Assembly: GCA_029582155.1 (NCBI GenBank)
Contig: CM055896.1
Span: forward strand, 26,193,184 to 26,257,183
Direction of reading: 5' to 3'
DNA from: Panopea generosa
Lineage: Eukaryota > Mollusca > Bivalvia > Adapedonta > Hiatellidae
Length of the DNA: 64,000 bases
In this document: piece by piece, positions 19,567 through 49,500 of the stretch
Layout of the letters: each line of letters starts with the position of its first letter
Position numbering within the stretch: position 1 is the stretch's first letter
Notes under the pieces: generated by a model
Seen by the model: the letters and a program-made list of their open reading frames with translations, nothing else
Database searches by the model: none
Told to the model about the DNA's origin: nothing
Translations under genes and position numbers: made by a program

Positions 19567-22500
19567 ACAATACGATATTAAGTAACTATAGAGTCATATA
19601 TATACTTATAACGAAAAGTTGCGTTCTTTACATTTCGTCGATAAAAGCAGAGAACGTATACATGCGTCGCTAAAAGTTCAAATTTGATCAGATAAAACGT
19701 CTTAAATATCACATAGTTTCCACACCTTTGTTATCATTGTGCTATATTGTGACAGATCTCAACACCTGAAATGTTTATATACTTCTCGTTGAGAATGCTA
19801 CTCAGGCTCAAAATGCCAAATCGTTACCATGGTTACACCATGTTATCTTAACTACACAAGGATATATTATGTATATAGACATCAACTAGATCGATAGAGC
19901 AAACACCAAGACGGGGTTTTGATATGTATCACTCTTGGGTCCCTTTTCTAGGTAGAAACATAGTTGTTTTTTAGAGACCAAAGGGTCGAGTTTGGATCCG
20001 AAATCTGGCATGAGCGGCCAGTGATATCGAGATCACTACTACCCCGCTTGTCAAGTATTGTGCGAAAGGCAGAAAAACACTAGTTTCTCTCCATCAAGTG
20101 AAATATGCGCATTGGATCAAATCTGACCTTCAAAATAAACCCAGTGTACAACTAAGAAAACTATGTTATTCTCGGTGACACATATCTCCGTTGTAAGCGG
20201 ATTGGTAGGGATGAGTATGTGCATGGTAGTCTTTAACATGGTCTGCGATATGATTTGGGATACTTAGAAAGCCGTGTGAAGCTCCAAACTTCCTGGACGC
20301 ATTTCTTGAGGTTGATGACAGCAAGAATGAACTTCTGATCAACCTGTACAATAATAGGTACATGACTGTAGTATATGTGTTTCAAACAATCACAGATACG
20401 GTCTGCCACTAAATGTATATGAAAGGTCATGATAGAAAGCAGTTGATACATATGTCCTGGTATAAGCCATTGATTTAAGTTGGCTGATTTGAGTGTGAAT
20501 TGGGTTGGATTTTGGAACTGGAAGATACTTGTCGAATGCATACCGTTTCATATTAACTTGATAAAGAGAGGATGAGGTCCCTGCCAGCATTCCATTCATT
20601 CACGGTGTGTGTACAAACTTATTCATTATTTAGTGGGAAAGGAAAACTATAGAACAATAAGGCATTTGAAACTATATTCACTACTATCTCTAAAGAATCC
20701 ATAAGAGTGCAATGCCATTTATAGAGTGATTTGTAGTTTAGTTTACACTTATTTATTTTACTTCGATTGCGAAACAAGTTCTTACAACTTATACAAATTA
20801 CGTTCGAACTCTTCCTCGGTTGAACCAGTACTAAGCATATGCGGAAAAGGAGTCTTGCTCAAGGTTACCTACCACACATGGCCGTGGTGGATGATCAAAC
20901 CGACCATGGGTTCGGTGCTCTACCACTGATCCACGTGGTACACAAATGATTTGTATTTGTCCCAACAATTACTTCTTCAAATGTAAAGTGTTCACATATA
21001 AAGATGACCAACCTCAGACAGCTCAGCTATAACGCACCAAACGAACAGCTTATCAAGTATTTTCCTTATCAAGTATCATCATTCAAAGCCCAAAAACAGA
21101 TTGGAAAACGTATAGGAACCAATCTGGTCGTCCCTCTACATGCTGAAAAATGGTATTTCAAAAGATGTAAACGTACCAAGGCATAATTGTGTACATTAAA
21201 GTAATATACCAGTAGCTGTTGATTACAAACTGTACAATGATTACACACTGTACGATAATTACACACTATACAATGATTACGAACTGCAAAATGAATACCC
21301 ATGTACAATGAGTACACACGTACAATGATTACACACTGTACAAGGATTGCGTATTACACGCTGACCAATGACTACACACAGTTCATTGATTAAACATTTT
21401 ACAACGGTTACACAAGGTACACAAATTGATTACACACCGTACACGAATTACACACCGTACAATGTTCACACAACGTATATTAATTACACACCGTACAATG
21501 ATCACACACTGTGCATTGATTAAACGCCATACAATAATTACATACTGTACATTGATTACACACCGTACAATGACTACACACTGTGCATTGATTACACACC
21601 GTACAATGATCACACACTGTGCATTGATTAAACGCCATACAATGATTACATACTGTACATTGATTACACACCGTACAATGACTACACACTGTGCATTGAT
21701 AACACACCGTACAATGATCACGTACCGTACATTGATAACACACCGTACAATGATCACGTACCGTACATTGATTACACACCGTACAATGACAATACACTGT
21801 GCATTGATTATACACCATACAATGACCACACACACCTTACATTGATTACACACTGTGCATTGATTACACACCGTACAATGACAATACACTGTGTATTGAT
21901 TATACATTGTACAATGACTACACACTGTGCATTGATTACACACCGTACAATGATTACACACTGTGCATTGATTACATACCGTACAATTATTACACAATGT
22001 GCATTGATAACACACTGTACAATGATCACATACCGTACAATGATTACACAACGAACAATGATCACACAACGTACAATGATTACGTACTGTACATGATTAC
22101 AAACTGTACAATGATTACACACGTACCATGATTACAAACTATACAATGATTACACACGTACAATGATTACAAACTGAACAATGATTACAAACTGTACAAT
22201 GATTACACACTGTACAATGATTACACATGTACAATGATTACAAACTGAACAATGATTACACACGTACAATGATTACACACTGTACAATGATTACACACTG
22301 TACAATGATTACACACGTACAATGATTATAAACTGAACAATGATTACATACGTAAAATGCTTACACACTGTACAATGATTACACACGTACACTGCTTACA
22401 CACGCACACGTACAATGCTTACACACAGTACAATTATTACACACGTACAATGCTTACACACTGTACAATGCTTACACACGTACACTGATCACACACGTAC

Positions 22501-25500
22501 AATGATTACACACGTACAATGCTTACACACTGTACAATGATTACACACGTATAATGATTACAAACTGAACAATGATTACACACGTACAATGATTACAAAC
22601 TGTACAATGATTACACACGTACACTGATTACACACGTACAATGATTACACACTGTACAATGATTACACACGTACACTGATTACACACTGTACAATTATTA
22701 CGAACTGCAAAAAGATTGCCCACGTACAATGATTACACACGTACAATGATTACAAACTGTACAATGATTACACACGTACAATGATTACAAACTGTACAAT
22801 GATTACACACTGTACAATAATTACAAACTGTACAATGATTGTACACGTACAATGATTACAAACTGTACAATGATTACAAAATGAACAGTGATTATGCACT
22901 GTACAATAATTGCACACTGGACAATGATTACTCTCTGTTCAAAGATTACAAACTGTACAATTATTACTCACTGTACAATGATTACGCACTAATCAATACA
23001 GTGAATACACACTGAACAATTATTACAAACTGTACACTGATTACTTACTGTACAGTGATTACGCACTTTACAATGATTACGCATTGTACAATGATTACAT
23101 ACTATTCAATGATTACAAACTATACAATGATTACGTACTGTACACAATCGTGAAACATCGGGTATTTCCGTATCCTCTGTAGAATACACCTCGTGTATAG
23201 CTCTAGAATACACCAACGCGAATCGCCTGTGTTACAAGTCTGTGTTCATTCGCGTGAAAGTAACAAATTATGTATCCGTCATTAAGTTGATTATATATGG
23301 CGTTGTTATATCGATTTTATTATTTATAAACTCGACATGGGTCATATTTATAGGGAAATTTAAAATATCAGCCTTGATTAACAAACGTTTATATTTTCAA
23401 CGTACATGTATATAAGGGGGCCGCCATTTTACTTTATCATGTGACTGAAAGTATTTCCAAAATGGCGCCTTATTATGTCAGAGGTCTATTGCGTAGCATA
23501 AAGGCCGAGGTGATCAGATTGGTACTGTACAATGATTACAAACTGTACAATGAACATTCACTGGCGATTTATTACATACTGTACAATGATTACACACATA
23601 CAATGGTTTCAAATTGTACAATGGGTACACACTGTACCAAAACAAAGATTCCATTTTAATAAGAATTAGTCAATAGAAAACAAAGATTCCATTTTAATGA
23701 GAATTAGTCAACAGTAAACAAAGATTCCATTTTAATGAGAATAAGTCAACAGTAAACAAAGATTCCATTTTAATAAGAATTAGTCAACAGAAAACAAAGA
23801 TTCCATTTTAATGAGAATTAGTCAACAGTAAACAAAGATTCCATTTTAATGAGAATAAGTCAACAGTAAACACAGATTCCATTTTAATGAAAATTAATGC
23901 ACAGAAAATGAGAATTAGTCAACAGTAAACAAAGATTCCATTTTAATGAGAATAAGTCAACAGTAAACAAAGAATCCATTTTAATGAGAATTAGTCAACA
24001 GTAAACAAAGATTCCATTTTAATGAGAATTAGTACACAGAAAATGAGAATTAGTCAACAGTGAATAAAGATTCCATTTTAATGAGAATTAGTCAACAGAA
24101 TACAAAGATTCCATTTTAATGAGAATTAGTCAACAGAAAATGAGAATTAATCAACAGTAAACAAAGATTCCATTTTAATGAGAATTAGTCAACAGAAAAC
24201 AAAGATTCCATTTTAATAAGAATTAGTCAACAGAAAACAAAGATTCCATTTTTATGAGAATAAGTCAACAGTAAACAAAGATTCCATTTTAATGAGAATA
24301 AGTCAACAGTAAACAAAGATTCGATTTAAATGAGAATAAGTACACAGAAAATGAGAATTAGTCAACAGTAAACAAAGATTCCATTTTAATGAGAATAAGT
24401 CAACAGTAAACAAAGATTCTATTTTAATGAGAATTAGTCAACAGTAAACAAAGATTCCATTTTAATGAGAATTAGTACACAGAAAATGAGAATTAGTTAA
24501 CAGTAAACAAAGATTCCATTTTAATGAGAATTAGTCAACAGAAAACAAAAATTCCATTTTAATGAGAGTTAGTCAACAGAAAACAAAGATTCCATTTTAA
24601 TGAGAATAAGTCAACAGAAAACAAAATCAACAGAAAACAAAGATTCCATTTTAATGAGAATTAGTCAACAGAAAACAAAGACTCCATTTTAATGAGAATT
24701 AGTCAACAGTAAACACAGATTCCATTTTAATGAGAATTTGTCAACAGGAACAAATATTCCATTTTATTTTAATGAGAATTAGTAAACAGTAAACAAAGAT
24801 TCCTTTTAATGAGAATTAGTCAACAGAAAACAAAGATTCCATTTTAATGAGAATAAGTCAACAGTAGACAAAGATTCCATTTTAATGAGAATTAGTACAC
24901 AGAAAATGAGAATTAGTCAACAGTAAACAAAGATTCCATTTTAATGCGAATTTGTAAACAGTAAACAAAGATTCCATTTTAATGAGAATTAGTCAACAGA
25001 TAACAAAGATTCCATTTTAATGAGAACTAGTAAACAGTAAACAAAGATTCCATTTTAACGAGAATTAGTCGAGAACTAGTAAACAGTAAACAAAGATTCC
25101 ATTTTAACGAGAATTAGTCAACAGAAAACAAAGATTCCATTTTAATGAGAATTAGTCAACAGTAAACAAAGATTTCATTTCAATGAGAATTAGTCTACAG
25201 AAAACAAAGATTCGATTTTAATGAAAATTAGTCAACAGAAAACAAAGATTCCATTTTGATGAGAATTAGTCAACAGTTAACAAGGTCAGATACTTAACAT
25301 AGTGGTTGAGTGCATACATTACATTATACCATTAGTCCATTTGAGTGCATACATTACATTATATGATTAGTCCATTTGAGTGCATACATTACATTATACC
25401 ATTAGTCCATTTGAGTGCATACATTACATTATACCATTAGTCCATTTGAGTGCATACATGACATAATACCATTAGTCCATTTGAGTGCATACATTACATT

Positions 25501-28500
25501 ATACCATTAGTCCATTTGAGTGCATACATTACATTATACCATTAGTCCATTTGAGTGCATACATTACTTAATACCATTAGTCCATTTGAGTGCATACATT
25601 ACATTAAATCATAAGTCCATTTGAGTGCATACATTACATTATACCATTAGTCCATTTGAGTGCATACATGACATAATACCATTAGTCCATTTGAGTGCAT
25701 ACATTACATTATACCATTAGTCCATTTGAGTGCATACATGACATAATACCATTAGTCCATTTGAGTGCATACATTATATTATACAATTAGTCCATTTGAG
25801 TGCATACGTTACATTATACCATTAGTCCATTTGAGTGCATACATGACATAATACCATTAGTCCATTTGAGTGCATACATTACATTATACCATTAGTCCAT
25901 TTGAGTGCATACATTACATTAAATCATTAGTCCATTTGAGTGCATGCATTACATTATACCATTAGTCCATTTGAGTGCATACATGACATAATACCATTAG
26001 TCCATTTGAGTGCATACATTATATTATACAATTAGTCCATTTGAGTGCATACATTACATTATACCATTAGTCCATTTGAGTGCATACATTACATAATACC
26101 ATTAGTCGATTTCAGTGCATACATTACATTATACCATTAGTCCATTTGTAATAACATATTCACGCTTGCTTCACCTTTAATACCGCAAGAAATACTATGG
26201 TGTCGAAACCTAGTTCGTCCTTTGTTTCCATTCAATTATGTACATTCTTTGGTTATTGTTTGTGACAATTGCCTGTGCATATGCATCGGTATGCAAGCAC
26301 TATTTAAAGTGCATAACATATAGAGAAAGTTTCCATTGGCAGTTTTTTATGTATAATTTGTCAAGATGCTCCCTTTAACACAGAAAAATTATCAAACGAT
26401 AGTATCTCATTAGAGTTTGCTATTTAGTGTTGGATAAAAACGGGTAACATATCTTCTCTGTTTCCCCAGCATGTCTGGTCAGCATCAACTGTATCAATGT
26501 AGAGTGGTCAACAAAAGTGCAAGTCGTCATAACAGCGAGCAAGTTGGCCGCCCTCGTCATGATAATCATCATTGGTTTCATCAACATTGGCAAAGGTTTG
26601 TAAATAGTATTGTTCATTCACATGCATAGGTGTGCTCTGGTTGACGTTATACACACGTATCACGGATGCACGACGCACGCACTACGCACTCAAGCATATA
26701 CATTTGAATGGGGTTTTTAATGTCACTTCCAACACATGCCAGGTTATATTATAAGATATTACGTTTGTTTGAGGTTCGGATAGAAAATTCCGTCTAGATG
26801 GATTACTGTTTTGGCGGAATGGGAACGAGGCTATGTCAAGTTACCGCGTAATCAGTTATCCCAAGGACGAAATACATATCCACTGAAAAAGCCACGGATT
26901 ATTCTTTTTCTTGCATATGGTGACATCTCTCTCACATTCGAGCATTGCACAAACCACTTATTCAAATGGTTATGCTAATATCAGTAAGTGGTCATCTGGT
27001 TGAAAAAGTCATTTAGTGCCCTGTCCTGCCACCATCTTCTTAGACTGAGTGATGTCAGCACCCAGATGTCAAATTAAGGGTTCTGAATGTGCTAATGATA
27101 GAAATACGAAAGTTGATAAATAAACATGGATTTTTGTAATATATTTTGAGCGATATGCTCCATTTATTTCATAATTTAACATCAGAGAGTTTAATATGTC
27201 TTGAATAAATGTACAAAATACCATTATAGTATCACCAGTAGTTAAAAAAGAGTTTCAACCAGTCGGTGTGAGGCTTCATCATTCTTCTAAAACATTTTCA
27301 GCGTGAGATAACGCTTCTTTGTTGTGTTTTCAAATTGACAAATATTTCGAGTTTTTACAAAACACCACCTCCCTTTCCACCTCCACTTTTTGACTTTTCT
27401 CTCTGGTTGGCTTAGAGTTACAAAATATATTTATACTTCATTACTTCTCTCTAAGTGTTTATCACAAGGATTGTCTCAAGAGGTACAGTTAGTGTCCTAT
27501 CATACTTCATTACGTCTCTAAGTGTTTATCACAAGGATTGTCTCAAGAGGTACAGTTATTGTCGTATCATACTTCATTACGTCTCTCTAAGTGTTTATCA
27601 CAAGGATTGTCTGAAGAGGTACAATTATTGACCTACATACTCCATTACTTCTCTCTAAGTGTTTATCACAAGGATTAACTCAAGGGCTACAATTATTGTC
27701 CTATCATACTTCATTACTTCTCTCTAAGTGTTAATCCCAAGGACTGTCTCAAGAGATACAATTATTGTCTTATATACTTCATCACGTCTCTAAGTGTTTA
27801 TCACAAGGATTGTTTCAAGAGGTACAATTATCGTCCTATATAGTTCATTACGTCTCTAAGTGTTTATCACTAGGATTATCACAATGATTGTATCAAGAGG
27901 TACAATTGTTGTCCTATATACTTCATTAAGTCTCTAATTGTTTATCACTAGGATTATCACAATGATTGTTTCAAGAGGTACAATTGTTGTCCTATTATAT
28001 ATCATTATGTTTGTCGAGTTCACCATATTCTGTGGCGGTATTTTTTGCCAGATAAGTGGAAAATTAGCTTATTAGGATTCAATTTGTTTGAATATTTGGC
28101 AAAAATAAACATTGGCCATTTTCAAAGCAATCTTAACTTTAGTTTTCTATTTGTTTGAATTGTTGACAAAAATAAAAATTACCTATTTTTCAGTCCAATC
28201 TAGAGTTTAGTTTTCTATTTTCACCAGTTCAGTTTTCTATTTTTCCATACATAGTAAGACAGAGCCAGTGCTTAGTTGTGAACAAACATTTTATTAAAAT
28301 TTTACGTGTAAAACTAGAAACTAAACAGATAATTTTAAAATATACACTTTCACAATTATGAACATAAAAATGTATGTGTTTATACACGGAATATTTAAGA
28401 AAGAAACAACTGTATCGGAATTTGTAAAATGTCCGCCCTAACAAATGCAAAACAAAAATATTAGCGAACGCATATTTTTACTAGACACAAACTCATAATG

Positions 28501-31500
28501 GTTGAAAAACAAATAGACAATCAGAAAAAAGTAAACTTTTAATTGATCCCTGCATGTGTAATTAATTAAGAAGGTCTTTGTCTCAATTCAAATACGTCTT
28601 ACTTTATTATATCAAATGAAATTGCTATCATCCATCGCCTTTATTTCTAAACCAATTTTGTCTTCTTCGATCCTAAATGAGCTAAGCTGTTCTGTGGCAG
28701 GTTCTACCAGAAGAGCGGCTTTATCGTGATCTAGTGGTATTGATTGAACATAAAACTAAATTAGATTTTGTCGTTCAAAGACCAGAGTCTGGCAAACTTA
28801 CCTTATACATTCAAATCTAATTATACAGTGAGCGATAGTTATGTGATTGTCAAGGAGCACCTTGTTTTGCTTTATATACGGATTTTGTTCCGTCAAGAAA
28901 TAATCTTCAGTATTAGTATACATTTTGTTTAACTTATGTTTAGAAAACATTATCTTTAGATTGTTTAATAGTTTTTACAATGTAAACATTGCTCGATAAT
29001 ATCATACACATAAGGCTCATTTGTTATGTTTATGTTATTAATGAACTTAATTAATTAATAACATATAGATAAAGGTTCCATTGGCAATTTTTATGTATAT
29101 TTTGTCAATATGCTCCATTTAACACAGAAACATGACCAATCGTCTTCACATGTTACCATACATGTATAATGTTAACTATCATATAGGCGAGGTGGAAAGT
29201 TAATAGTCATCACATGTTATCGTACATGTATAATGTTAACTATCATATAGGTGAGGTGGAAAATTAATCATCATCACATGTTAGCTTACATGTATAATGT
29301 TAACTATTATATAGGCGAGGTGGAAAGTTGATAGCCATCACATGTTACCGTACATGTATAATGTTAACTATCATAAACGCGAGGTGGATAGTTAATAGTC
29401 ATCACATGTTATCGTACATGTATAATGTTAACTATCATATAAGTGAGGTGGAAAGTAAATGTTCATCACCTGTGATCGTACATGTATAATGTTAACTATC
29501 ATATAGGCGAGGTGGAAAGTTAATCGTCATCACATGTTACCGTACAAGTTTAATGTTAACTATCATATAGGCGAGGTGGAAAGTTAATCGTCATCACATG
29601 TTACCGTACATGTATAATGTTAACTATCATATACGCGAGGTGGAAAGTTAATCGTCATCACATGTTACCGTACATGTATAATGTTAACTATCATATAGGC
29701 GAGGTGGAAAGTTAATAGTCATCACATGTTACCGTACATGTATAATGTTAACTATCATAAAGGCGAGGTGGAAAGTTAATCGTCATCACATGTTACCGTA
29801 CATGTATAATGTTAACTATCATAAAGGCGAGGTGGAAAGTTAATCGTCATCACATGTTATCGTACATGTATAATGTTAACTATCATATAGGCGTGGTGGA
29901 AAGTTAATCGTCATCACATGTTATCGTACATGTATAATGTTAACTATCATATAGGCGAGGTGGAAAGTTAATCGTCATCACATGTTATCGTACATGTATA
30001 ATGTTAACTATCATATAGGCGAGGTGGAAAGTTAATCGTCATCACATGTTACCGTACATGTATAATGTTAACTATCATATAGGCGAGGTGGAAAGTTAAT
30101 CATCATCACATGTTATCGTACATGTATAATGTTAACTATCATATAGGTGAAGTGGAAAGTAAATCGTCATCACATGTTACCGTACATGTATAATGTTTAC
30201 TATCATATAGGCGAGTTGGAAAGTTAATAGTCATCACATGTTAGCTTACATGTATAATGTTAACTATCATATAGGTGAGGTGGAAAGTTAGTCGACATCA
30301 CATGTTATCGTACATGTATAATGTTAACTATCATATAGGCGAGGTGGAAATTAGTCGTTATCACATGTTACGGTACATGTATAATGTTAACTATCATATA
30401 GGCGAGGTGGAAAGTTAATCGTCATCACATGTTATCGTACATGTATAATGGTTACTATTATATAGACGAGGTGGAAAGTTAGTCGTCATCACATGTTACT
30501 GTACATGTTAAATGCTAAATATTATATAGGCAGGGTGGAAAGTTAATCTTCATCACATGTTATCATACATGTATAATGTTAACTATCATATAGGCGAGGT
30601 GGAAAGTTAGTCGTCATCACATGTTACCGTACATGTATAATGTTAACTATCATATAGGCGAGGTGGAAAGTTAATCGTCATCACATGTTACCGTACATGT
30701 ATAATGTTAACTATCATATAGGCGAGATGGAAAGTAAGTCGTCATCACATGTTACCGTACATGTATAATGTTAAATATCATACAGGCGAGGTTGAAAGTT
30801 AGTCGTCATCACATGTTATCGTACATGTATAATGTTAACTATTATATAGGCGAAGTGGAAAGTTAGTCGTCATCACATGTTACCGTACATGTATAATGTT
30901 AACTATCATATAGACGAGGTGGAAAGTTAATCGTCATCACATGTTACCGTACATGTATAATGTTAACTATTATATAGGCGAGGTGGAAAGTTAATCTTAA
31001 TCACAAGTTACCGTACATGTATAATGTTAACTATCATATAGGCGAGGTGGAAAGTTAATATTCATCACATGTTATCGTACATGTATAATGTTAACTATCA
31101 TATAGGCGAGGTGGAAAGTTAGTCGACATCACATGTTACTGTACATGTATAATGTTAACTATCATATAGGCGAGGTGGAAAGTTAATAGTCATCACATGT
31201 TATCGTGCATGTATAATGTTAACTATTATATAGACGAGGTGGAAAGGTAGTCGTCATCACATGTTATCGTACATGTTAAATGTTAACTATCATATAGGCG
31301 AGGTGGAGGTAATTCTTCATCACATGTTATCGTACACGTATAATATTTCCTAACATTTATGCGAGGTGGAAAGTTAATCTTCATCACATGTTACCGTACA
31401 TGTATAAAGTTAACTATTATATGGCGAGTTGGAAAGTTAATCGTCATCACATGTTATCGTGCATGTATAATGTTAACTATCATATAGGCGGGATGGAAAG

Positions 31501-34500
31501 TTAATCGTCATCACATGTTATCGTACATGTATAATGTTAACTATCATATAGGCGTGGTGGAAAGTTAATCGTCATCACATGTTACCGTACATGTATAAAG
31601 TTAACTATCATATAGGCGAGGTGGAAAGTTAATCGTCATCCCATGTTACCGTACATGTATAATGTTAACTATCATATAGACGAGGTGGAAAGTTAATCGT
31701 CATCACATGTTACCGTACATGTATAATGTTAACTATTATATAGGCGAGGTGGAAAGTTAATCTTAATCACAAGTTACCGTACATGTATAATGTTAACTAT
31801 CATATAGGCGAGGTGGAAAGTTAATATTCATCACATGTTATCGTACATGTATAATGTTAACTATCATATAGGCGAGGTGGAAAGTTAGTCGACATCACAT
31901 GTTACTGTACATGTATAATGTTAACTATCATATAGGCGAGGTGGAAAGTTAATAGTCATCACATGTTATCGTGCATGTATAATGTTAACTATTATATAGA
32001 CGAGGTGGAAAGGTAGTCGTCATCACATGTTATCGTACATGTTAAATGTTAACTATCATATAGGCGAGGTGGAGGTAAATCTTCATCACATGTTATCGTA
32101 CATGTATAATATTTCCTAACATTTATGCGAGGTGGAAAGTTAATCTTCATCACATGTTACCGTACATGTATAAAGTTAACTATTATATGGCGAGTTGGAA
32201 AGTTAATCGTCATCACATGTTATCGTGCATGTATAATGTTAACTATCATATAGGCGAGATGGAAAGTTAATCGTCATCACATGTTATCGTACATGTATAA
32301 TGTTAACTATCATATAGGCGTGGTGGAAAGTTAATCGTCATCACATGTTACCGTACATGTATAAAGTTAACTATCATATAGGCGAGGTGGAAAGTTAATC
32401 GTCATCACATGTTATCGTACATGTATAATGTTAACTATCATATAGGCGAGGTGGAAAGTAAATCTTCATCACATGTTACTGTACATGTATAATGTTTACT
32501 ATCATATAGGCGAGGTGGAAAGTAAGTCGTCATCACATGTTACCGTACATGTATAATGTTAACTATCATATAGGCGAGGTGGAAAGTTAATCGTCATCAC
32601 ATGTTACCGTACATGTGTAATGTTAACTATCATATAGGTGAGGTGGAAAGTAAGTCGTCATCACATGTTACCGTACATGTATAATGTTCAATATCATATA
32701 GGCGAGGTTGAAAGTTAATCGTCATCACATGTTATCGTACTTGTATAATGTTAAATATTATATAGGCGAGGTGGAAAAGTTATCGTCATCACATGTTACC
32801 GTACATGTTATAATGTTAACTATCATACAGGCGAGGTGGAAAGTTAATCGTCATCACATGTTATCGTACATGTATAATGTTAACTATCATATAGGCGAGG
32901 TGGAAAGTTAGTCGTCATCACATGTTAATGTACATGTATAATGTTAACTATCATATAGGCGAGGTAGAAAGATAGTCGTCATTACATGTTGTCGTACATG
33001 TATAATGTTAACTATCATATAGGCGAGGTGGAAAGTAAATCTACATCACGTGTTATCGTACATGTATAATGTTTCCTATCATATTGGCGAGGTGGAAAGT
33101 TAGTCGACATCACATATTACCGTACATGTATAATGTTAAATATCATATAGGCGAGGTGGAAAGTTAATCGTCATCACATGTTACCGTACATGTATAATGT
33201 TAACTATCATATTGGCGAAGTGGAAAGTTAATATTCATCACATGTTATCGTACATGTATAATGTTAACTACCATATAAGCGAGGTGGAAAGTTAGTCGAC
33301 ATCACATGTTATCGTACATGTATAATGTTAACTATCATAAAGGCGAGGTGGAAAGTTAATAGTCATCACCTGTTATCGTACATGTATAATGTTAACTATT
33401 ATATAGACGAGGTGGAAAGTTAGTCGTCATCACATGTTACCGTACATGTTAAATGTTAACTATCATATAGGCGAGGTGGAAAGTAAATCTTCATCACATG
33501 TTATCGTACATGTATAATGTTTCCTAACATATAGGCAAGGTGGAAAGTTAATTGTCATCACATGTTATCGTACATGTATAATGTTAACTATTATATAGGC
33601 GATGTGGAAAGTTAATCGTCATCACATGTTATCGTACATGTATAATGTTAACTATTATATGGAGAGGTGGAAAGTTAATCGTCATCACATATTACCGTAC
33701 ATGTATTATGTTCAATATCATATAGGCGAGGTGGAAAGTTAATCGTCATCACATGTTATCGTACATGTATAATGTTAAGTATTATATAGACGAGGTGGAA
33801 AGTTAGTCGTTATCACATGTTACCGTACATGTATAATGTTAACTATCATATAGGCGAGGTGGAAAGTTAATAGTCATCACCTGTTATCGTACATGTATAA
33901 TGTTAACTATTATATAGACGAGGTGGAAAGTTAGTCGTCATCACATGTTACCGTACATGTTAAATGTTAACTATCATATAGGCGAGTTGGAAAGTTAATC
34001 GTCATCACATGTTATCGTACATGTATAATGTTTCCTAACATATAGGCGAGGTGGAAAGTTAATTGTCATCACATGTTATCGTACAAGTATAATGTTAACT
34101 ATTATATAGGCGATGCGGAAATTTAATCGTCATCACATGTTATCGTACATGTATAATGTTAACTATCATATAGGCGAGGTGGAAAGTTAGTCGTCATCAC
34201 ATATTACCGTACATGAATAATGTTAAATACCATATAGGCGAGTTGGAAAGTTAATTGTCATCTCATGTTACCGTACATATATAATGTTAACTATCATATA
34301 GGCGAGGTGGAAAGTTAATCATCATCATCACATGTTACCGTACATGTATAATGTTAACTATTATATAGACGAGGTGGAAAGTTACTCTTAATCACATGTT
34401 ACCGTACATGTATAATGGTAACTATCATATAGGCGAGGTGGAAAGTTAATAGTCATCACATGTTACCGTACATGTATAATGTTAACTATTATATAGACGA

Positions 34501-37500
34501 GGTGGAAAGTTAATCTTAATCACATGTTACCGTACGTGTATAATGTTAAATATCATATAGGCGAGATGGAAAGTTAATCGTCATCACATATTACCATACA
34601 TGTATAATGTTAACTATCATATAGGCGAGGTGGAAAGTTAATATTCATCACATGTTATCGTACATGTATAATGTTAACTATCATATAGGCGAGATGGAAA
34701 GTTAGTCGACATCACATGTTACTGTACATGTATAATGTTAACTATCATATAGGCGAGGTGGAAAGTTAATAGTCATCACATGTTATCGTGCATGTATAAT
34801 GTTAACTATTATATAGACGAGGTGGAAAGTTAGTCGTCATCACATGTTACTGTACATGTTAAATATTAACTATCATATAGGCGAGGTGGAAAGTAAATCT
34901 TCATCACATGTTATCGTACATGTACAATGTTTCCTAACATATAGGCGAGATGGAAAGTTAATCGTCATCACATGTTATCGTACATGTATAATGTTAACTA
35001 TTATATAGACGAGGTGGAAAGTTAATCTTCATCACATGTTACCGTACATGTATAAAGTTAACTATCATATAGGCGAGGTGGAAAGTTAATAGTCATCACA
35101 TGTTATCGTACATGTATAATGTTAAATATCATATAGGCGAGATGGAAAGTTAATCGTCATCACATGTTATCGTACATGTATAATGTTTCCTAACATATAG
35201 GCGAGATGGAAAGTTAATCGTCATCACATATTACCGTACATGTATAATGTTAACTATCATATAGGCGAGGTGACAAGTAAATCGTCATCATATGTGACCG
35301 TACATGTATAATGTTAACTATCATATAGGCGAGGTGGAAAGTTAGTCGTCATCGCATGTTACCGTACATGTATAATGTTAACTATCATATAGGCGAGGTG
35401 GAAAGTTAATATTCATCACATGTTATCGTACATGTATAATGTTAACTATCATATAGGCGAGGTGGAAAGTTAATCGTCATCACAAGTTACCTTCAATGTA
35501 TAATGTTAACTATCATATAGGCGAAGTGGAAACTTAATCGTCATCACATGTTACCGTACGTGTATTATGTTAACTATCATATAAGCGAAGTGGAAACTTA
35601 ATCATCATCACATGTTACCGTACGTGTATAATGTTAACTATCATATAGGCGAGGTGGAAAGTAAATCTTCATCACATGTTATCGTACATGTATAATGTTT
35701 CCTAACATATAGGCAAGGTGGAAAGTTATTTGTCATCACATGTTATCGTACATGTATAATGTTAACTATTATATAGGCGATGTGGAAAGTTAATCGTCAT
35801 CACATGTTATCGTACATGTATAATGTTAACTATTATATGGAGAGGTGGAAAGTTAATCGTCATCACATATTACCGTACATGTGTTATGTTCAATATCATA
35901 TAGGCGAGGTGGAAAGTTAATCGTCATCACATGTTATCGTACATGTATAATGTTAAGTATTATATAGACGAGGTGGAAAGTTAGTCGTTATCACATGTTA
36001 CCGTACATGTATAATGTTAACTATCATATAGGCGAGGTGGAAAGTTAATAGTCATCACCTGTTATCGTACATGTATAATGTTAACTATTATATAGACGAG
36101 GTGGAAAGTTAGTCGTCATCACATGTTACCGTACATGTTAAATGTTAACTATCATATAGGCGAGTTGGAAAGTTAATCGTCATCACATGTTATCGTACAT
36201 GTATAATGTTTCCTAACATATAGGCGAGGTGGAAAGTTAATTGTCATCACATGTTATCGTACAAGTATAATGTTAACTATTATATAGGCGATGCGGAAAG
36301 TTAATCGTCATCACATGTTATCGTACATGTATAATGTTAGCTATCATATAGGCGAGGTGGAAAGTTAGTCGTCATCACATATTACCGTACATGAATAATG
36401 TTAAATACCATATAGGCGAGTTGGAAAGTTAATTGTCATCTCATGTTACCGTACATATATAATGTTAACTATCATATGGGCGAGGTGGAAAGTTTATCAT
36501 CATCATCACATGTTACCGTACATGTATAATGTTAACTATTATATAGACGAGGTGGAAAGTTAATCTTAATCACATGTTACCGTACATGTATAATGGTAAC
36601 TATCATATAGGCGAGGTGGAAAGTTAATAGTCATCACATGTTACCGTACATGTATAATGTTAACTATTATATAGACGAGGTGGAAAGTTAATCTTAATCA
36701 CATGTTACCGTACGTGTATAATGTTAAATATCATATAGGCGAGATGGAAAGTTAATCGTCATCACATATTACCATACATGTATAATGTTAACTATCATAT
36801 AGGCGAGGTGGAAAGTTAATATTCATCACATGTTATCGTACATGTATAATGTTAACTATTATATAGGCGAGAGGGAAAGTTAGTCGACATCACATGTTAC
36901 TGTACATGTATAATGTTAACAATCATATAGGCGAGGTGGAAAGTTAATAGTCATCACATGTTATCGTGCATGTATAATGTTAACTATTATACAGACGAGG
37001 TTGAAAGTTAGTCGTCATCACATGTTACTGTACATGTTAAATGTTAACTATCATATAGGCGAGGTGGAAAGTAAATCTTCATCACATGTTATCGTACATG
37101 TACAATGTTTCCTAACATATAGGCGAGATGGAAAGTTAATCGTCATCACATTTTATCGTACATGTATAATGTTAACTATTATATAGACGAGGTGGAAAGT
37201 TAATCTTCATCACATGTTACCGTACATGTATAAAGTTAACTATCATATAGGCGAGGTGGAAAGTTAATAGTCATCACATGTTATCGTACATGTATAATGT
37301 TAAATATCATATAGGCGAGGCGGAAAGTTAATCGTCATCACATGTTATCGTACATGTATAATGTTTCCTAACATATAGGCGAGATGGAAAGTTAATCGTC
37401 ATCACATATTACCGTACATGTATAATGTTAACTATCATATAGGCGAGGTGGCAAGTAAATCGTCATCATATGTGACCGTACATGTATAATGTTAACTATC

Positions 37501-40500
37501 ATATAGGCGAGGTGGAAAGTTAGTCGTCATCGCATGTTACCGTACATGTATAATGTTAACTATCATATAGGCGAGGTGGAAAGTTAATATTCATCACATG
37601 TTATCGTACATGTATAATGTTAACTATCATATAGGCGAGGTGGAAAGTTAATCGTCATCACAAGTTACCTTAAATGTATAATGTTAACTATCATATAGGC
37701 GAAGTGGAAACTTAATCGTCATCACATGTTACCGTACGTGTATTATGTTAACTATCATATAAGCGAAGTGGAAACTTAATCATCATCACATGTTACCGTA
37801 CGTGTATAATGTTAACTATCATATAGGCGAAGTGGAAACTTAATCGTCATCACATGTTACCGTACATGTATAATGTTAACTATCATATAGGCGAAGTGGA
37901 AACTTAATCGTCATCACATGTTACCGTACGTGTATAATGTTAACTATCATATAGGCGAAGTGGAAACTTAATCTCATCACATGTTTCCGTACGTGTATAA
38001 TGTTAACTATCATATAGGCGAAGTGGAAACTTAATCGTCATCACATGTTACCGTACATGTATAATATTAACTATCATATAGGCGAAGTGGAAACTTAATC
38101 GTCATCACATGTTACCGTACGTGTATAATGTTAACTATCATATAGGCGAAGTGGAAACTTAATCGTCATCACATGTTACCGTACATGTATAATGTTAACT
38201 ATTATATAGACATGGTGGAAAGTTAATCTTAATTACATGTTAGCGTACATGTATAATGTTTACTATCATATAGGCGAGGTGGAAAGTTAATATTCATCAC
38301 ATGTTATCGTACATGTATAATGTTAACTATCATATATGCGAGGTGGAAAGTTAATCGTCATCACAAGTTACCGTACATGTATAATGTTAACTATCATATA
38401 GGCGAAGTGGAAACTTAATCGTCATCACATGTTACCGTACGTGTATAATGTTAACTATCATATAGGCGAAGTGGAAATTTAATCGTCATCACATGTTACC
38501 GTACGTGTATAATGTTAACTACCATATAGGCGAAGTGGAAACTTAATCGTCATCACATGTTACCGTACATGTATAATGTTAACTACCATATAGGCGAAGT
38601 GGAAACTTAATCGTCATCACATGTAACCGTACGTGTATAATGTTAACTATCATATAGGCGAAGTGGAAACTTAATCGTCATCACATGTTACGGTACGTGC
38701 ATAATGTTAACTATCATATAGGCGAAGTGGAAACTTAATCGTCATCACATGTTACCGTACGTGTATAATGTTAACTATCATATAGGCGAAGTGGAAACTT
38801 AATCGTCATCACATGTTACCGTACGTGTATAATGTTAACTATCATATAGGCGAAGTGGAAACTTAATCGTCATCACATGTTACCGTACGTGTATAATGTT
38901 AACTATCATATAGGCGAAGTGGAAACTTAATCGTCATCACATGTTACCGTACGTGTATAATGTTAACTATCATATAGGCGAAGAGGAAAGTTAATCGTCA
39001 TCACATGTTACCGTACATGTATAATGTTAACTATCATATAGGAGAGGTGGAAACTTAATCGTCATCACATGTTACCGTACGTGTATAATGTTAACTATTA
39101 TATAGTCGAGGTGGAAAGTTAATCGTCATTACAAATATATATATAGATATTATAGACTTTTTGTTAACAAAATTAACATCATTTTGGACAGAAGCTTTTA
39201 AATTCAGAAACAATCTGATATATTATGTATAACATTTCACATACATAGATATGTATTATATTATAAACTAGATTTGCCAATATAATTTTGTTTAAGCCAC
39301 TCTCACCAATATTGATTACAACTATGTATAATATTGTAACCAACCCATTGCATGCATTGTAAATGTTTGTATAATTTATGACGATTAGTTACGATTCTCT
39401 AAAAAAAATATCTTCTGCTCTATTCTGTTCTGTTAACACTCATACAGGCGAGGTATAAAAATTCATTGCATAACATGTTATTGTACATTAACACGGTTAA
39501 TTATCCTATTATCGGAGTCCTGGAATATTTTTGTCATAAAGTTTTGTTGTACATGTGTAATGTTAATAATTATCGGAGTCCTGGAATGTTTTTGTCCATA
39601 GACTGTTGTTGTACATGTGTAATGTTTACTATCCTATTACGGGTGATCTGTAATATTTTTGTCATAGACTGTTGCTGTACATGTGTAATGTTTACTATCC
39701 TATTATCGGCGACCTGGAATATTTTTTTCATAAAGCTTTGATGTACATGTGTAATGTTAACTATCCAATTATCGATGTCCTGGAATATTTTTGTCATAAA
39801 GTTTTGTTGTACATGTGTAATGTTAACAAGTATCGGAGTCCTGGAATATTTTTGCCATAGACTGTTGCTGTACATGTGTAATGTTAACTATCCTATTAAT
39901 ATCGGTGACCTGGAATATTTTTGTCATAGACTGTTGTTGTACATGTGTAATGTTTACTATCCTATTATCGGCGACTTGGAATATTTTTGTCATAAAGTTT
40001 TGATGTACATGTGTAATGTTAACTATCCAATTATCGATGTCCTGGAATATTTTTGTCATAAAGTTTTGTTGTACATGTGTAATGTTAACAAGTATCGGAG
40101 TCCTGGAATATTTTTGCCATAGACTGTTGTTGTACATGTGTAATGTTAACTATCCTATTACGGGTGACCTGGAATATTTTTGACATAAACAGTTGTTGTA
40201 CATGTGTAATGTTAACTATCCTATTATCGGTGACCTGGAATATATATTTTGTCATAGACTGTTGTTGTACATGTGTAATGTTAACTATCCTATTATCTGT
40301 GACCTGGGATATTTTTTTACATAAACTGTTGTTGTACATGTGTAATGTTAACTTTCCTATTATCTGTGACCTGGGATATTTTTTTTACATAAACTGTTGT
40401 TGTACATGTGTAATGTTAACTTTCCTATTATCTGTGACCTGGGATATTTTTTTTACATAGACTGTTGTTGTACATGTGTAATGTTAACTATCCTATTATC

Positions 40501-43500
40501 TGTGACCTGGGATATTTTTTTTACATAAACTGTTGTTGTACATGTGTAATGTTAACTTTCCTATTAGAGGTGAACTCGAGTATATTTTACACAAACTGTT
40601 GTTGTACATGTAATGTGAACTATCTTATTACAGGCAAAGTAGACAGTTTTAAGGATTCCTTTGCTGACAGCGATTACAGTGCGGGATCCATCGCCATTGC
40701 CTTTTACTCTGGCTTCTGGGCGTTTGGTGGATGGTGGGTAAATATTTCCTTCATCATTGGTTGTAGATTATTAAAGTGTTTTGTACTGGTAAATAAAATG
40801 TCCCTATTCGCTGTAATGATTTTATGCAATTAATTTACTATTGTGAAGCCGATGAGGATTTGCTGATTGTAAAAGATAAATACATTTCTTAATGCTTTAT
40901 ATCAAAAGGTTTTATATTGCAATCACGCGTATGTGAATATCCATTAATCACGTTATTAAAAAACAGGTACTTGAAGTATCCATTAATCATGTATATTACA
41001 AAAACCGTGTACTTGAAGTATCCATTAATCACGTATATTACAAAAAACGTGTACTTGAAGTATCAATTAATCACGTATATTACAGAAAAAGGTACTTGAA
41101 GTATCAATTAATCACGTATATTACAAAAACAGTGTGCTTGAAGTATCAATTAATCACGTATATTACAAAAAACAGGTAAATGAAGTATCAATTAATCACG
41201 TATATTACAAAAACAGTGTACTTGAAGTATCTATTAATCATATATATTACAAAATACGTGTACTTGAAGTATCCATTAATCATGTATATTACAAATACGT
41301 GTACTTGAAGTATCCATTGATCACGTATATTACAAAATACTTAATCACGTATATTACAAATACGTGTATTTGAAGTATCCATTAATCACGTATATTACAA
41401 ATACGTGTACTTGAAGTATCCATTAATCACGTATATTACAAATACGTTTACTTGAAGTATCAATTGATCACGTATATTACAAACAAACGTGTATTTGAAG
41501 TATCCATTAATCACGTATATTACAAATACGTGTACTTGAAGTATCCATTGATCACGTATATTACAAATACATGTACTTGAAGTATCCATTAATCACGTAC
41601 ATTCCAAATACGTGTACTTGAAGTATCCATTGATCGCGTATATTACAAACAAACGTGTATTTGAAGTTTCCATTAATCACGTATATTACAAATACGTGTA
41701 CTTGAAGTATCCATTGATCACGTTTATTACAAAAAAACGTGTGCTTGAAGTATCCATTAATCACGTATATTACAAAAAACGTCTACTTGAAGTTTCTATT
41801 GCTATGCATATAACGAAAAACATGTATCTTGAGTATCCGTTTTACCATGTACACACATGTAACGAAATTTGCTTTTCATATAGTCAAATAGTGTTATGAT
41901 ATCCGTAGCATGTTTATATAGGTACCACCGCAGCTCCAAATATATAACAATTAGAAAGGAAAAAATAATACTAAATAGTAAAAACTCGCGTAAAATCTTA
42001 TATTATTGAAGAAGCGCCATCTATGTCTACGTATGTATATTCAATAATAGAATGCGCGCAAATGTTAGGGATTTAAATACACTTACATTGGAAAAGAAGC
42101 AACAAATCGCGGAAACATTGACACAACAATTGGCTATACAGGTTTGTATTAACCAAGTTTGAGTGCAAGAATCTTGCTACGGTGAGGAAAAAGGGGCGTA
42201 ACTGTGTAGTGAGATCTAAAGTACCCGTTGACGATGTACACGACGAAGCACGTGTAGTTGAAATGTCCAGTGACAGCGTACATAACGAATACCAAGAAAA
42301 TGTGTATGTTTTTATGTTTTTTCAGGAGCTACTTGAATTTCCTCACCGACGAACTGATTGAACCTCACAGGTTAGTATTTATTGGTACTAAAGCTTGTTT
42401 GGGTGTGAATTTTGGAACACAGTGTCACTTACTTTTATAATTACATTAGAACGAGCTCATCGTGTTTACTTCAAATTTATTCAAAATTTACCTGCATATA
42501 CAAGAACGGACATTGCAGTTGGCATTACATGTATTAATTCAGAAAATGATTATATAAAAATGCAATTGCTTGCACGATTGTGTACACTCCCTTATAAATG
42601 TATTACTAAGCAAATATTCACCAACCGACCAAAGCGTTATTTAAATGATGATAATCAAACACAAGGGTTTATAACAGATACTTACAGGTTAATAATGAAA
42701 CACAATGGTTTATACCAGATACTTACAGTATTTACATGTTATTAATCAAACACAATGGTTTATACCAAATACTTACAGGTTAAAAATGAAACACAATGGT
42801 TTATACCAGATTCTTACAGGTTAATAATGAAACATAAGGGTTTATACCAAATACTTACAGGTTAATAATGAAACACAATGGTTTATACCAGATACTTACA
42901 GGTTAATAATGAAACACAATGGTTTATACCAGATACTTACAGGTTAATAATGAAACACAAGGGTTTATACCAGATACTTACAGGTTAATAATGAAACTCA
43001 ATGGTTTATACCATATACTTACAGTTTATTAATCAAACACAATGGTTTTTATCAGATACTTACAGGTTAATAATGAAACTCAATGGTTTATACCAGATAC
43101 TGACAGGTTAATAATCAAACACAAGGGTTTATACCAGATACTTACAGGTTAATAATGAAACTCAAGGGTTTAGACCAAAAACTGACAGGTTATTAATGAA
43201 ACACAATGGTTTATACCTGATACTTACAGGTTAATAATGAAACACAAGGGTTTATACCAGATACTTACAGGTTAATAATGAAACACAATGGTTTATACCA
43301 GATACTTACAGGTTAATAATGAAACACAAGGGTTTATACCAGATACTGACAGGTTTATAATGAAATTCAATGGTTTATGCCAGATACTTACAGGTTAATA
43401 ATGAAACACAATGGTTTATACCAGATACTTACAGGTTAATAATGAAACTCAATGGTTTATACCAAATACTTACAGGTTATTAACCAAACACAATGATTTA

Positions 43501-46500
43501 TACCAGATACTTACAGGTTAATAATGAAACTCAATGGTTTATACCAGATACTGACCGGTTAATAATCAAACACTCGGTTTTATACCAGATACTTACAGGT
43601 TAATAATGAAACTCAAGGGTTTATACCAGATACTTACAGGTTAATAATGAAACACAAGGGTTTATACCAGATACTGACAGGTTAATAATGAAACTCAATG
43701 GTTTATACCAGATACTGACAGGTTAATAATCAAACACTCGGGTTTATACCAGATACTTACAGGTTAATAATGAAACTCAAGGGTTTATACCAGATACTTA
43801 CAGGTTAATAATGAAACAAAAGGGTTTATACCAGATACTGACAGGTTAATAATGAAACTCAATGGTTTATACCAGATACTTACAGGTTAATAATGAAACA
43901 CAATGGTTTATACCAGATACTTACAGGTAAATAATAAAACACAAGGGTTTATACCAAATACTTACAGGTTAATAATGAAACACAAGGGTGTATACCAGAT
44001 ACTTACAGGTTAATAATGAAACACAAGGGTTTATACCAGATACTGACAGGTTAATAATGAAACTCAATGGTTTATACCAGATACTTACAGGTTAATAATG
44101 AAACACAATGGTTTATACCAGATACTTACAGGTTAATAATGAAACACAAGGGTTTATACCAGATACTTACAGGTTACTAATGAAACACAATGGTTTATAC
44201 CAAATACTTACAGGTTAATAATGAAACTCAATGGTTTATACCAAATACTTACAGGTTATTAACCAAACACAATGATTTATACCAGATACTTACAGGTTAA
44301 TAATGAAACTCAATGGTTTATACCAGATACTGACAGGTTAATAATCAAACACTCGGGTTTATACCAGATACTTACAGGTTAATAATGAAACACAAGGGTT
44401 TATACGAAATACTTACAGGTTATTAATCAAACACACGGGTTTATACGAAATACTTACAGGTTAATAATCAAACACAAGGGTTTATACGAAATACTTACAG
44501 GTTAATAATCAAACACAAGGGTGTATACCAGATAGTTACAGGTTAATAATGAAACACAAGGGTTTATACGAATTACTTACAAGTTATTTATCAAACACAA
44601 CGGTTTATACCAGATACTTACAGGTTATTAATGAAACTCAATGGTTTATACCAGATACTTACAGGTTAATAATGAAACACAAGGGTTTATACCAGATACT
44701 TACAGGTTAATAATGAAACTCAATGGTTTATACCAGATACTTACAGGTTAATAATGAAACTCAGTGGTTTAAACCATATACTTACAGGTTATTAATCAAA
44801 CACAATGGTTTATACCAGATACTTACAGGTTTATAATGAAACTCAATGGTTTATACCAGAAACTGACAGGTTAATAATCAAACACAAGGGTTTATACCAG
44901 ATACTTACAGGTTAATAATGAAACTCAATGGTTTAGACCAAATACTGACAGGTTATTAATGTAACACAATGGTTTATACCTGATACTTATAGGTAAATAA
45001 TAAAACACAAGTGTTTATACCAGATACTTACAGGTTAATAATGAAACACAAGGGTGTATACCAGATATTTACAGGTTAATAATGAAACACAAGGGTTTAT
45101 ACCAGAAACTGACAGGTTAATAATGAAACTCAATGGTTTATACCAGATACTTACAGGTTAATAATGAAAAACAATGGTTTATACCAGATACTTACAGGTT
45201 AATAATGAAACACAAGGGTTTATACCAGATACTTACAGGTTAATAATGAAACACAATGGTTTATACCAAATACTTACAGGTTAATAATGAAACTCAATGG
45301 TTTATACCAAATACTTACAGGTTATTAACCAAACACAATGATTTATACCAGATACTTACAGGTTAATAATGAAACTCAATGGTTTATACCAGATACTGAC
45401 AGGTTAATAATCAAACACTCGGGTTTATACCAGATACTTACAGGTTAATAATGAAACTTAAGGGTTTATACTAAATACTTACAGGTTATTAATCAAACAC
45501 AATGGTTTATACCTGATACTTACAGGTTAATAATCAAACACAAGGGTGTATACCAGATACTTACAGGTTAATAATGAGACATAAGGGATTATACCAAATA
45601 CTAACAGGTTATTAATCAAACACAATGGTTTATACCAGATACTTACAGGTAAATAATGAAACTCAATGGTTTATACCAGATACTTACATGTTAATAATCA
45701 AATACAAAGGTGTATACCAGATACTTACAGGTTAATAATGAAACACAAGAGTTTATACGAAATACTTACAGGTTATTAATCAAACACAAGGGTTTATACG
45801 AAATACTTACAGGTTAATAATGAAACACAAGGGTTTATACGAAATACTTACAGGTTAATAATCAAACACAAGGGTGTATACCAGATACTTACAGGTTAAT
45901 AATGAAACACAAGGGTTTATACGAAATACTTACAGGTTAATAACCAAACACAAGGGTTTATACCAGATACTTACAGGTCATTAATCAAACACAAGGGTTT
46001 ATACCAGATACTCACTGGTCATTAATCAAACACAACGGTTTATACCAAATACTTACAGATTAATAAACAAACACAAGGGTTTATACCAGATACTTACTGG
46101 TCATTAATCAAACACAATGGTTTATACCAGATACTTACAGATTAATAAACAAACACAAGGGTTTATACCAGATACTTACAGGTTAATAACTATAGTCTGT
46201 TTGATTATTTACTAACCTTTATAGAAACGTCACAACTTCCATCTAAACAAGCATGGTACATTATTTTAAAAGAGAAGATATATGAAGATAATTATATTCA
46301 AATGTCAAATCGACTCTCCTCAGTGATGGAAGAGGTTCAAACTGTTAATATGTTTAAGATTCTAAATCCATGTCATATATGGTAATCATATCGAGGCAGA
46401 CCGGATATGAGACCCCAATGTCAAACAGCCGTTTTAGTTCTTGCACAATTATTTTCGTTTGTTCGTCCAGATATATGTAAACATAATGTTGTTGAAAATA

Positions 46501-49500
46501 AAGTCGTTCATATTGTCCATATGTTTTCCGAAAATAATGCAATACGAAATCTGGACACCCATCATTGAGAGTCTGGAGGTGTTCAGTAAATACCGATCAA
46601 AACAACCAAAGGCGCATATATACGATCTACTTGTAGGTTTCGGACAATACGTCATGGATGACGATCAGTTGCTGGTGACAATCATTAATAAAGTTTTCAA
46701 AATGATAACATACAAAAAAAGTTTTAGTTTAAAGTAACTATAAAGTATCAGGCGTTAATTACATGCTTACTTATCTTAATGTTTGTTAATTAAGTTTCAT
46801 GTGATTATATTTGGTATGTTTTTTGTGTTTTTTGTGTTTTTTTTATGATATCGTCATGTACATACTGTATTTTTAATTTAATATTATGGTTTGTCAAATT
46901 GTAAATGTTCTGTCTTTTAAGGTAGTTCGCGGCGTTCCTATTGGATTTTTTTACATCTGGCGTAATTTATCAAAAATCTGAACAATTGATACCTGAAGTC
47001 TCAGATTTCGTTTAAACATTGTTTTATTATATATAGTACCGCAGTTTTTCGTTAATACCGCCTCCTAGTGGTACGTATTTTTCGGACGATGTTCGCTGTT
47101 TTTCCCTTGTTAAATAATCAGTATTTATTTAAAATTGTTTTTAATAACATTATTAAATAACTAATTTTATTTCCCGTAATAAGATCTGAACTGAACTCTC
47201 ATCCAGATAAAATATAATTTGTGTTACCTTCACATATAATTATTACGCCGGAGTTGATTTTAAAAACAACGAATTTTGAAGGTTCACGCCTGATTGCACA
47301 AAAAATGCGCTGGTACAAGTTCTTGAAATTTACATATATCAAACAGGTGTTACGGGATGAACTAGTAAGTATACCAGGACAGGTGTTACGTACTGGATGG
47401 ACGAGTAAGTATACCAGGACATGTGTTACGTACGGGATGAACGAGTAAGTATACCAGGACATGTGTTACGTACAGGATGGACGAGTAAGTATACCAGTAC
47501 AGATGTTACGTAAGGGATGTACGAGTAAGTATACCAGGACAGATGCTACGTACTGGATGGACGAGTAAGTATACCAGGATATGTGTTACGTACGGAATGG
47601 ACGAGTAAGTATACCAGGATAGATGTTACATACGGGATGAACGAGTAAGTATACCAGGACAGATGTTACGTACGGGATGAACAAGTAAGTATACCAGGAC
47701 AGGTGTTACGGGATGGACGAGTAAGTATACCAGGACATGTGTTACGTACGGGATGGATGAGTGTTACGTACGGGATGGACGAATAAGTATACCAGGACAT
47801 GTGTTACGTACGGGATGAACAAGTAAGTATACCAGGACATGTGTTACGTACGGGATTGACGAATAAGTATACCAGGGCATATGTTACGTACGGGATGGAC
47901 GAACGAGTAAGTATACCAGGACATGTGTTACGTACGGGATGAACGAGTAAGTATACCAGGACAGATGTTACGTACGGGATGAACGAGTAAGTATACCAGG
48001 ATATGTGTTACGTACGGGATGAACGAGTTAGTATACCAGGACAAGTGTTACCTACGGGATGAACGAGTAAGTATACCAGGACAGGTGTTACATGTACGTA
48101 CGGGATGGATGAGTAAGTATACCAGGACAGATGTTACGTACGGGATGGACGAGTAAGTATACCAGGACAGATGTTACGTACGGGATGTACGAGTAAGTAT
48201 AACAGGACAGATGTTACAATTGGGATGAACGAGTAAGTATACCAGGACATGTGTTACGTACGGGAAGGACTAGTAAGTATACCAGGACAGATGTTATGTA
48301 CGGGATGGACGAGTAAGTATACCAGGACAGATGTTACGTACGGGATGAACGAGTAAGTATACCAGGACATGTGTTACGTACGGGATGAACGAGTAAGTAT
48401 ACCAGGACAGATGTTACGTACGGGATGGACGAGTAAGTATACCAGGACAGATGTTACGTACGGGATGAATGAGTAAGTATACCCGTTACGGTTTAAAACA
48501 GTTGTACTCTCAATGTCATGTATGCATATGTAAAACACTAATCACATTGTACATTTTGAAAATTGTATCAAATTTAATTCTGTTTCAGAAATCTCCCACG
48601 TGCAATCATAATATCCATCGCCATAGTTACGGTGGTGTACTTGATCGCCAATATCGCCTACTTTGCCGTCCTTACTCCTTCCGAGATGCTGGCATCATCA
48701 GCAGTAGCCGTCGTAAGTGGACATTTCATAAGAAATAACGGATGCATTTCTGTTTAATAACATATAATGGATGTGGCATATTCACCACGAAGAAATACCA
48801 CTTCGTTATTGTTAACACCTTAAAAGGCGAGTATACAACCTTTTTTCTTCGGGACCACGTAAGCGTTTGGGGGGGGGGGGGGGGGGGGGGGGGGGGCGTG
48901 GAGGCGGGGGCAGAGGTAGCATAAACTTTTTTGCTCCCCTTATTTTAGTAAAAAAGTTTAAAAGTAACACAAAAAAAAAGCATCTGAAATAAATGACAAC
49001 CATTACTTTTTATCATAAAGGTGTAATCCCACCATTGATTTTTGAAAGCTTGTCATCATTCATAGAGAGACCAAAATGAAAGAAGTGAAACTTGCATTTT
49101 ACTGTTGGTCAACCTCTGCACTACCAAAATATGATGAGAAAAGTAGGGGTCATGTGTCATACAAGGGATTTTTTTTTCTGCTTGACAATGCTCACAAAAT
49201 GTTCAAATTCCAGGGGAGGCCATCATACTGCCGCCATCCCCTTCCTTACTTTCCCACACGTTTTGGCTCGCAATGCGTGAGTGTTTGAAACACGGTGGCG
49301 GTTCACGGTGGCGGTTCACATTTTAATACATCTTATATTTTTTGGTTTTTAGAGTGTTTGTGTATAATAAAAAACGACACAAAATACAGGAGTAAATAAA
49401 ATAATAGTCTGTGTGTGTGTGTGTGCATGCGTGCGTGCGTGTGCGTGCGTGTATGTGTGGACCCACCCCCTCTCCAATCATTGAAATTATATACGTATAT

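Follow-up and report, generated by a model that had tools for sequence, protein, structure and literature searches.

A mirage-type minisatellite of unusual length in intron 2 of an SLC7-type transporter gene, with the exon 3 acceptor as its last unit

The window, i.e. the whole analysed stretch of 64,000 nucleotides, carries on its plus strand a gene for an amino-acid transporter of the SLC7 type (LAT-like). At least nine coding exons, with putative ends read from the sequence, join into an open frame of 508 codons; neither a stop nor a further exon was located. The best relative of solved structure is 7ccs chain B (E 2.3e-86, obtained with a slightly misjoined query). Intron 2 (26596-40633) ends at the boundary CTTATTACAG/GCAAAGTAGACAGTT (here and below, the slash marks the exon-intron boundary), with the acceptor AG at 40632-40633, and contains two arrays and a degenerate unit between them. 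The exons and the elements of intron 2 are as follows:

18824-19424, plus strand: exon 1
26470-26595, plus strand: exon 2, donor GGCAAAG/GTTTGT, phase 1
29138-39133, plus strand: 64-bp array, 156 units (156.2 copies), copies of the intron end and the first ~15 exon bases
39430-39500 (approximate), plus strand: degenerate 64-type unit between both arrays, CTCATACAG/GCGAGGTA (score 66, 0 of 2000 shuffles)
39496-40630, plus strand: 66-bp array, 17.2 copies, 17 units upstream of the real junction
40589-40648, plus strand: the real acceptor junction of intron 2 and exon 3, which closes the series (multiple alignment, scored match)
40634-40733, plus strand: exon 3, 33 protein letters
42326-42370, plus strand: exon 4
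48589-48712, plus strand: exon 5
49548-49651, plus strand: exon 6
50270-50366, plus strand: exon 7
57659-57808, plus strand: exon 8
60320-60497, plus strand: exon 9

Large minisatellites lie within introns 1, 2, 3, 4, 7 and 8; most of the large introns and the region upstream of the gene are packed with minisatellites of 18-69 bp (1-17583, 21220-26148, 27433-28220, 40934-41838, 42651-48483, 50435-56994 and 58185-59947). On the minus strand, positions 9190-11313 hold frames with a YADD box, which we take to be reverse-transcriptase-like and which apparently belong to a LINE-like element; beside them lies a 59-bp array that recurs at 11315-11957.

A second assembled copy of the gene was found on a 653-kb contig (C29), with exons 1 and 3-9 99-100% identical to those of the window; exon 2 was not found within the stretches of C29 that were read. 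This copy contains at least 194 complete 64-bp units (an N gap lies on their 5' side), compared with 156 in the window, while the 66-bp array is about equally long in both. C29 presumably represents the other haplotype, assembled from pieces in the wrong order and apparently also the wrong orientation; alternatively, it may be a recent duplication. On C29, exon 1 is found past exon 9 and on the minus strand, and the N gap falls at the 64-bp array (places of interest at 262.5-263.0 kb and 310.0-310.5 kb).

The preliminary description of this locus had proposed that both arrays copy the intron 2/exon 3 junction, and this was borne out by alignment of the monomers to the junction against shuffled controls; the positions given there also proved correct. 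The 64-mer consensus aligns from about -44 (intron) to +15 (exon) with a score of 50.5 on the window copy and 58.5 on C29, compared with a shuffle mean of 19 and maxima of 41 and 42.5 (0 of 5000 shuffles as high); none of 11450 overlapping non-array segments of 65 bases came as high either (best 38.5). When the intron half fixes the alignment, the exon part of the 64-mer agrees with exon 3 of the window at 11 of 15 positions (12 of 15 in the second comparison). Among 1510 15-mers of coding sequence a single one reaches 10 or more, namely the true junction, and letter shuffles reach 11 of 15 in 35 of 200000 cases, or 10 of 14 in 69 of 200000 if the first G is omitted. The 66-mer, which had been said to share the intron half, indeed matches the junction there and only there (scores 64.5 and 72.5 on the two assembled copies, reached by none of 5000 shuffles; of the 11450 real segments, 13 score 40 or more, with a maximum of 46), the 66-bp units being weak in the exon half. 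The two monomers are homologous to each other round the full repeat unit (score 83, reached by none of 2000 shuffles). The multiple alignment places the 64-mer consensus, the 66-bp units, the degenerate unit and the real acceptor in one series, at the edge of which the real exon 3 acceptor stands as the last of the 66-bp units, just as had been claimed. As judged by these alignments, the 64-bp and 66-bp arrays are one repeat family, the last unit of which is the real exon 3 acceptor.

When all 16 arrays were compared with 17 junctions (272 pairs), the 64-mer and the 66-mer scored 50 and 64 against the intron 2 acceptor, and only these two monomers exceeded their shuffles over the nine exons with flanks (0 of 60 each; 15 of the 16 arrays tested, the 67-bp array omitted). 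None of the remaining 14 arrays is linked to a junction of its own intron (among the 12 intronic ones tested, the lowest p is 0.083; the other two lie upstream of exon 1 and hence have no such junction), and therefore junction copying is not a rule for the arrays of this gene. The 41-bp array as a copy of the exon 4 donor and the 42-bp array as a copy of the exon 7 donor were considered as candidates and rejected (p = 0.11 and p = 0.57, respectively).

Could the likeness between arrays and junction have arisen by chance between AT-rich sequences? Three further array-junction pairs, none of them within its own intron and all unrelated, also lie at the shuffle floor (1/301), but with scores of 25-30, and the highest score among the other 270 pairs is 34, compared with 50.5-58.5 for the 64-mer, which neither the 5000 shuffles nor the best real segment reach; chance is hardly conceivable as an explanation, and is refuted for the 64-mer and for the intron half of the 66-mer. 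Another explanation is capture, in which a repeat, pre-existing or mobile, inserted at the end of the intron and supplied the exon 3 acceptor. That the last 66-type unit is the real acceptor would be expected from such a capture as well, and the surrounding genome is rich in minisatellites. However, a search of the 1.47-Gb genome for a 37-base stretch of the 64-mer, with up to 3 mismatches allowed, gave 294 forward and 0 reverse matches (control 0), and separate counts gave 130 for the window and 164 for C29:237000-286999; at this threshold, which would miss copies with more than 3 mismatches in 37, no satellite-like or transposon-borne copies dispersed to other genomic places were found. Since 294 equals 130 plus 164, the monomer is not a dispersed repeat, and its close copies are confined to intron 2 of the two assembled copies. 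Moreover, an intron occurs at the same place and in the same phase in five paralogues (L016, L070, L073, L074 and L077): the nearest one, L016 (C3:26102078, 63% identity over its exon 3), reads TTCAG/GAGAGACTGAAAGTT, and the other four have CAG at this place. Neither L016 nor L073 (viewed as L020) carries an array there within flanks of 1.5 kb, whereas L070, L074 and L077 were viewed with about 100 bases of intron only; a 168-bp array further upstream in intron 2 of L016 is unrelated to the junction. Because the paralogues share the place and phase of the intron, the junction is very probably older than the array, and a direction from junction to array is supported by this comparison. The exon half of the monomer also reads SLC7-like codons, G-E-V-E-S. 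Capture is thereby largely refuted and appears very improbable. Of the two origins offered in the preliminary description, amplification of a splice junction has stood; derivation of the acceptor from a repeat has not, given the confinement of the 294 matches, the intron shared by five paralogues and the lack of an array in L016 and L020.

The exon half of the monomer gives a further indication of its history. In its exon half the monomer has G-E-V-E-S, against G-K-V-D-S in exon 3 and G-E-T-E-S in L016; at both codons that differ between monomer and exon 3, the monomer is joined not only by L016 but also by L070 and L073 (G-E-T-E-H) and by L077 (G-E-Y-E-N), while L074 (G-N-T-E-H) sides with it at one of the two. 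At the nucleotide level, identity to L016, L070, L073, L074 and L077 amounts to 11, 9, 9, 5 and 8 of 15 for the exon half of the monomer, 8, 6, 7, 7 and 7 of 15 for exon 3 of the window, and 9, 7, 8, 7 and 6 of 15 for exon 3 of C29, i.e. the monomer is closer than exon 3 to four of the five paralogues, and L074 shows the opposite (5 versus 7 of 15). Other loci decide nothing: L063-L069, L071 and L076 read G-G/R-T-H/Q-Y and L072 reads G-Y-T-Y-Q, with other residues, and L075 has other residues or another alignment. Of the copies that lack the intron or contain stops, L018 and L062 show E at the second site and L019 shows D, as exon 3 does, and L046 (six stops) reads K-V-E-N, i.e. the K of exon 3 at the first site and E at the second. 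The monomer is thus probably a fossil of an older start of exon 3, for which two or three polarisable sites give fair, not overwhelming, support.

A junction-derived array was found also in a sister gene about 127 kb upstream on the same contig (C3:26085626-26086625; locus L056, also L042, with L041 on C29), this time at a donor. The array of 11.3 copies of an 89-bp unit starts with the real exon 1/intron 1 donor, i.e. 66 exon bases followed by GTAAGTAATCTGATTTACTGTA, and each of the ten additional donor sites that were found has TT in place of GT; in the exon part, 8 of 10 copies have CTGTAGGGA for CTGTTGGGA. Aligned to its own donor the unit reaches a score of 152, compared with no more than 24 for six other exon edges of the sister gene, and the same array on C29 is alike at 996 of 1000 bases.

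The amphioxus genome comprises about 0.5 Gb, with which the 1.47 Gb found here do not agree. "Mirage" minisatellites, a rare kind of repeat, have been described from amphioxus in Adh3 and in the globin genes BflGb6 and BflGb9, with 6 and 3 units of 150-160 bp in BflGb6 and units of 10-72 bp in Adh3 (PMC3087553). As that report presents them, they resemble the present case in that tandem units extend across the intron-exon boundary beside the real junction, that 5' and 3' boundaries are both affected, and that AG or GT is kept in many but not all copies (PMC3087553). The amphioxus arrays also differ in length between haplotypes (PMC3087553); here the two assembled copies differ in length, C29 being cut by an N gap and only presumably the other haplotype. 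The boundary-spanning unit, the real junction as edge unit and the partial retention of the splice dinucleotide are all found at our locus, and the intron 2 arrays are a "mirage" minisatellite, an unusually long one, probably in a phylum other than that of amphioxus. They differ from the amphioxus mirages in size, with 156 units of 64 bp in the window and at least 194 on C29 (about 10 kb or longer) in a genome of 1.47 Gb, and in the mostly AG-less sub-array that separates the AG-bearing array from the real acceptor. For lancelet PGBD5, splice sites have been reported to be overlapped by, or to coincide with, imperfect tandem repeats of 60 and 108 bp; they are placed at splice sites as here, but the 108-bp repeat has three copies (PMC3902484). 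Human genes in segmental duplications contain internal tandem repeats that average 4 units of 30 bp and are coding in half of the cases. These are likewise minisatellites, some of which lie at an exon-intron boundary and alter gene structure, but the boundary repeats are said to create new introns (PMC2812944), whereas here the intron very probably predates the array. A C. elegans minisatellite lies near alternative exons and does not represent a copied junction (PMC4039745). Among the titles and opening lines of abstracts surveyed for open-licence articles in PMC, no junction-spanning array outside lancelets was found except for the human boundary repeats (PMC2812944).

We consider it highly likely that intron 2 contains a mirage-type minisatellite in which a segment of the junction was amplified in tandem within its own intron. 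The first event would have been a tandem duplication, at the real junction, of a segment of about 64-66 bp (~48 bases from the end of intron 2 plus ~15 from the start of exon 3), upon which the exon-derived part of every upstream copy would have become intron. One lineage of copies, which stayed beside the real acceptor, would have lost the AG in all but one unit and given rise to the 66-bp array; the other, further upstream, would have mostly kept it and grown, presumably by unequal exchange, to the 156 and at least 194 copies of the 64-bp array. In this array, units at a distance of 34 resemble each other more than units at any other spacing do, with a mean of 0.913 and 19 exact pairs; an exchange of blocks would produce such a pattern. 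Mirages are characterised by a homogenised interior and diverged edge units; here the ends of the 64-bp array are no more diverged than its middle (0.96 and 0.95 in the terminal bins of 13 units, 0.91-0.95 between them); the diverged units of the series are the degenerate orphan, the 66-type units and the real one. Part of the resemblance could be secondary, if gene conversion from the array had partly overwritten the true junction. Over 193 bases round the junction, 3 sites distinguish the window copy from C29, and the C29 state is present in array units at all 3 (at -17 in both types, at -9 in the 66-mer only and at +5 in the 64-mer), but the G at +5 occurs also in three of the five paralogues (L016, L070 and L073), and C29 may keep the older state there; such conversion is an unlikely, though not far-fetched, contribution. 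The array AGs might instead act as decoy or poison acceptors, which lower or delay the splicing of intron 2 with a strength set by the length of the array. Consistent with such a role, an AG stands at the acceptor place in 140 of the 156 64-mers of the window (AGG in 120) and in 185 of 194 on C29, translation from 130 of the 156 would meet a stop codon within 8 codons if indels between units are disregarded, the array is of unequal length in the two assembled copies, and the 66-bp unit adjoining the real acceptor keeps its AG (at 40566). The share of pyrimidines at -20 to -4 is 0.53 in the 64-mers and 0.41-0.88 in the eight acceptors of the gene; low pyrimidine content as a sign of weak array AGs was therefore rejected, and, as it fails to separate them from real acceptors, the array sites are not shown to be dead by sequence alone. 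However, the adjoining unit is the only AG-keeping one of the 17 upstream 66-bp units, and the 16 without AG belong to the array nearest to the real acceptor; the ten extra donors of the sister gene have lost their GT, and RT-PCR suggested that regular splicing is undisturbed by the amphioxus mirages (PMC3087553). We regard a decoy role as decidedly improbable. The some 170 acceptor-like units of the preliminary description are therefore an overestimate: AG is kept in about 141 of 173 units in both arrays together and is lacking in 16 of the 17 66-bp units.

The downstream last copy is most likely still the acceptor used in splicing, because the reading frame continues there, uninterrupted, into conserved SLC7 protein sequence. 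From this conservation across the true junction, and by analogy with the RT-PCR results for amphioxus (PMC3087553), we infer that the array AGs are silent. The loss of AG in the 66-bp units and of GT in the sister donors suggests that copies without a splice signal are favoured or neutral.

Junction-derived minisatellites provide a concrete route of intron growth, and more than 100 near-copies of a junction allow splice-site choice to be tested; the arrays may furthermore record exon sequence that was freed from coding constraint. If the animal is not a lancelet, this long case and the donor case of the sister gene would extend the phenomenon to another group, in which its frequency would be worth measuring. 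Perhaps introns of this animal lineage have even grown repeatedly by junction amplification, independently of amphioxus, with donors and acceptors repeatedly seeding minisatellites that are tolerated once their founders lose the splice signal and that keep coding fossils; we offer this as a tentative suggestion, and rather doubt it. A scan of 29 SLC7-like loci (including some places twice or as second copies) for arrays with units of at least 20 bp over a matched exon edge found no further case, only exon 1 of the sister gene, in its two copies. At C7:48.6-48.9 Mb there is a cluster of alike copies of an SLC7-like exon 3, which mostly read G-G-T-H-Y-L-E-N-S-F, many of them about 43 kb apart and with a CAGCAG double acceptor.
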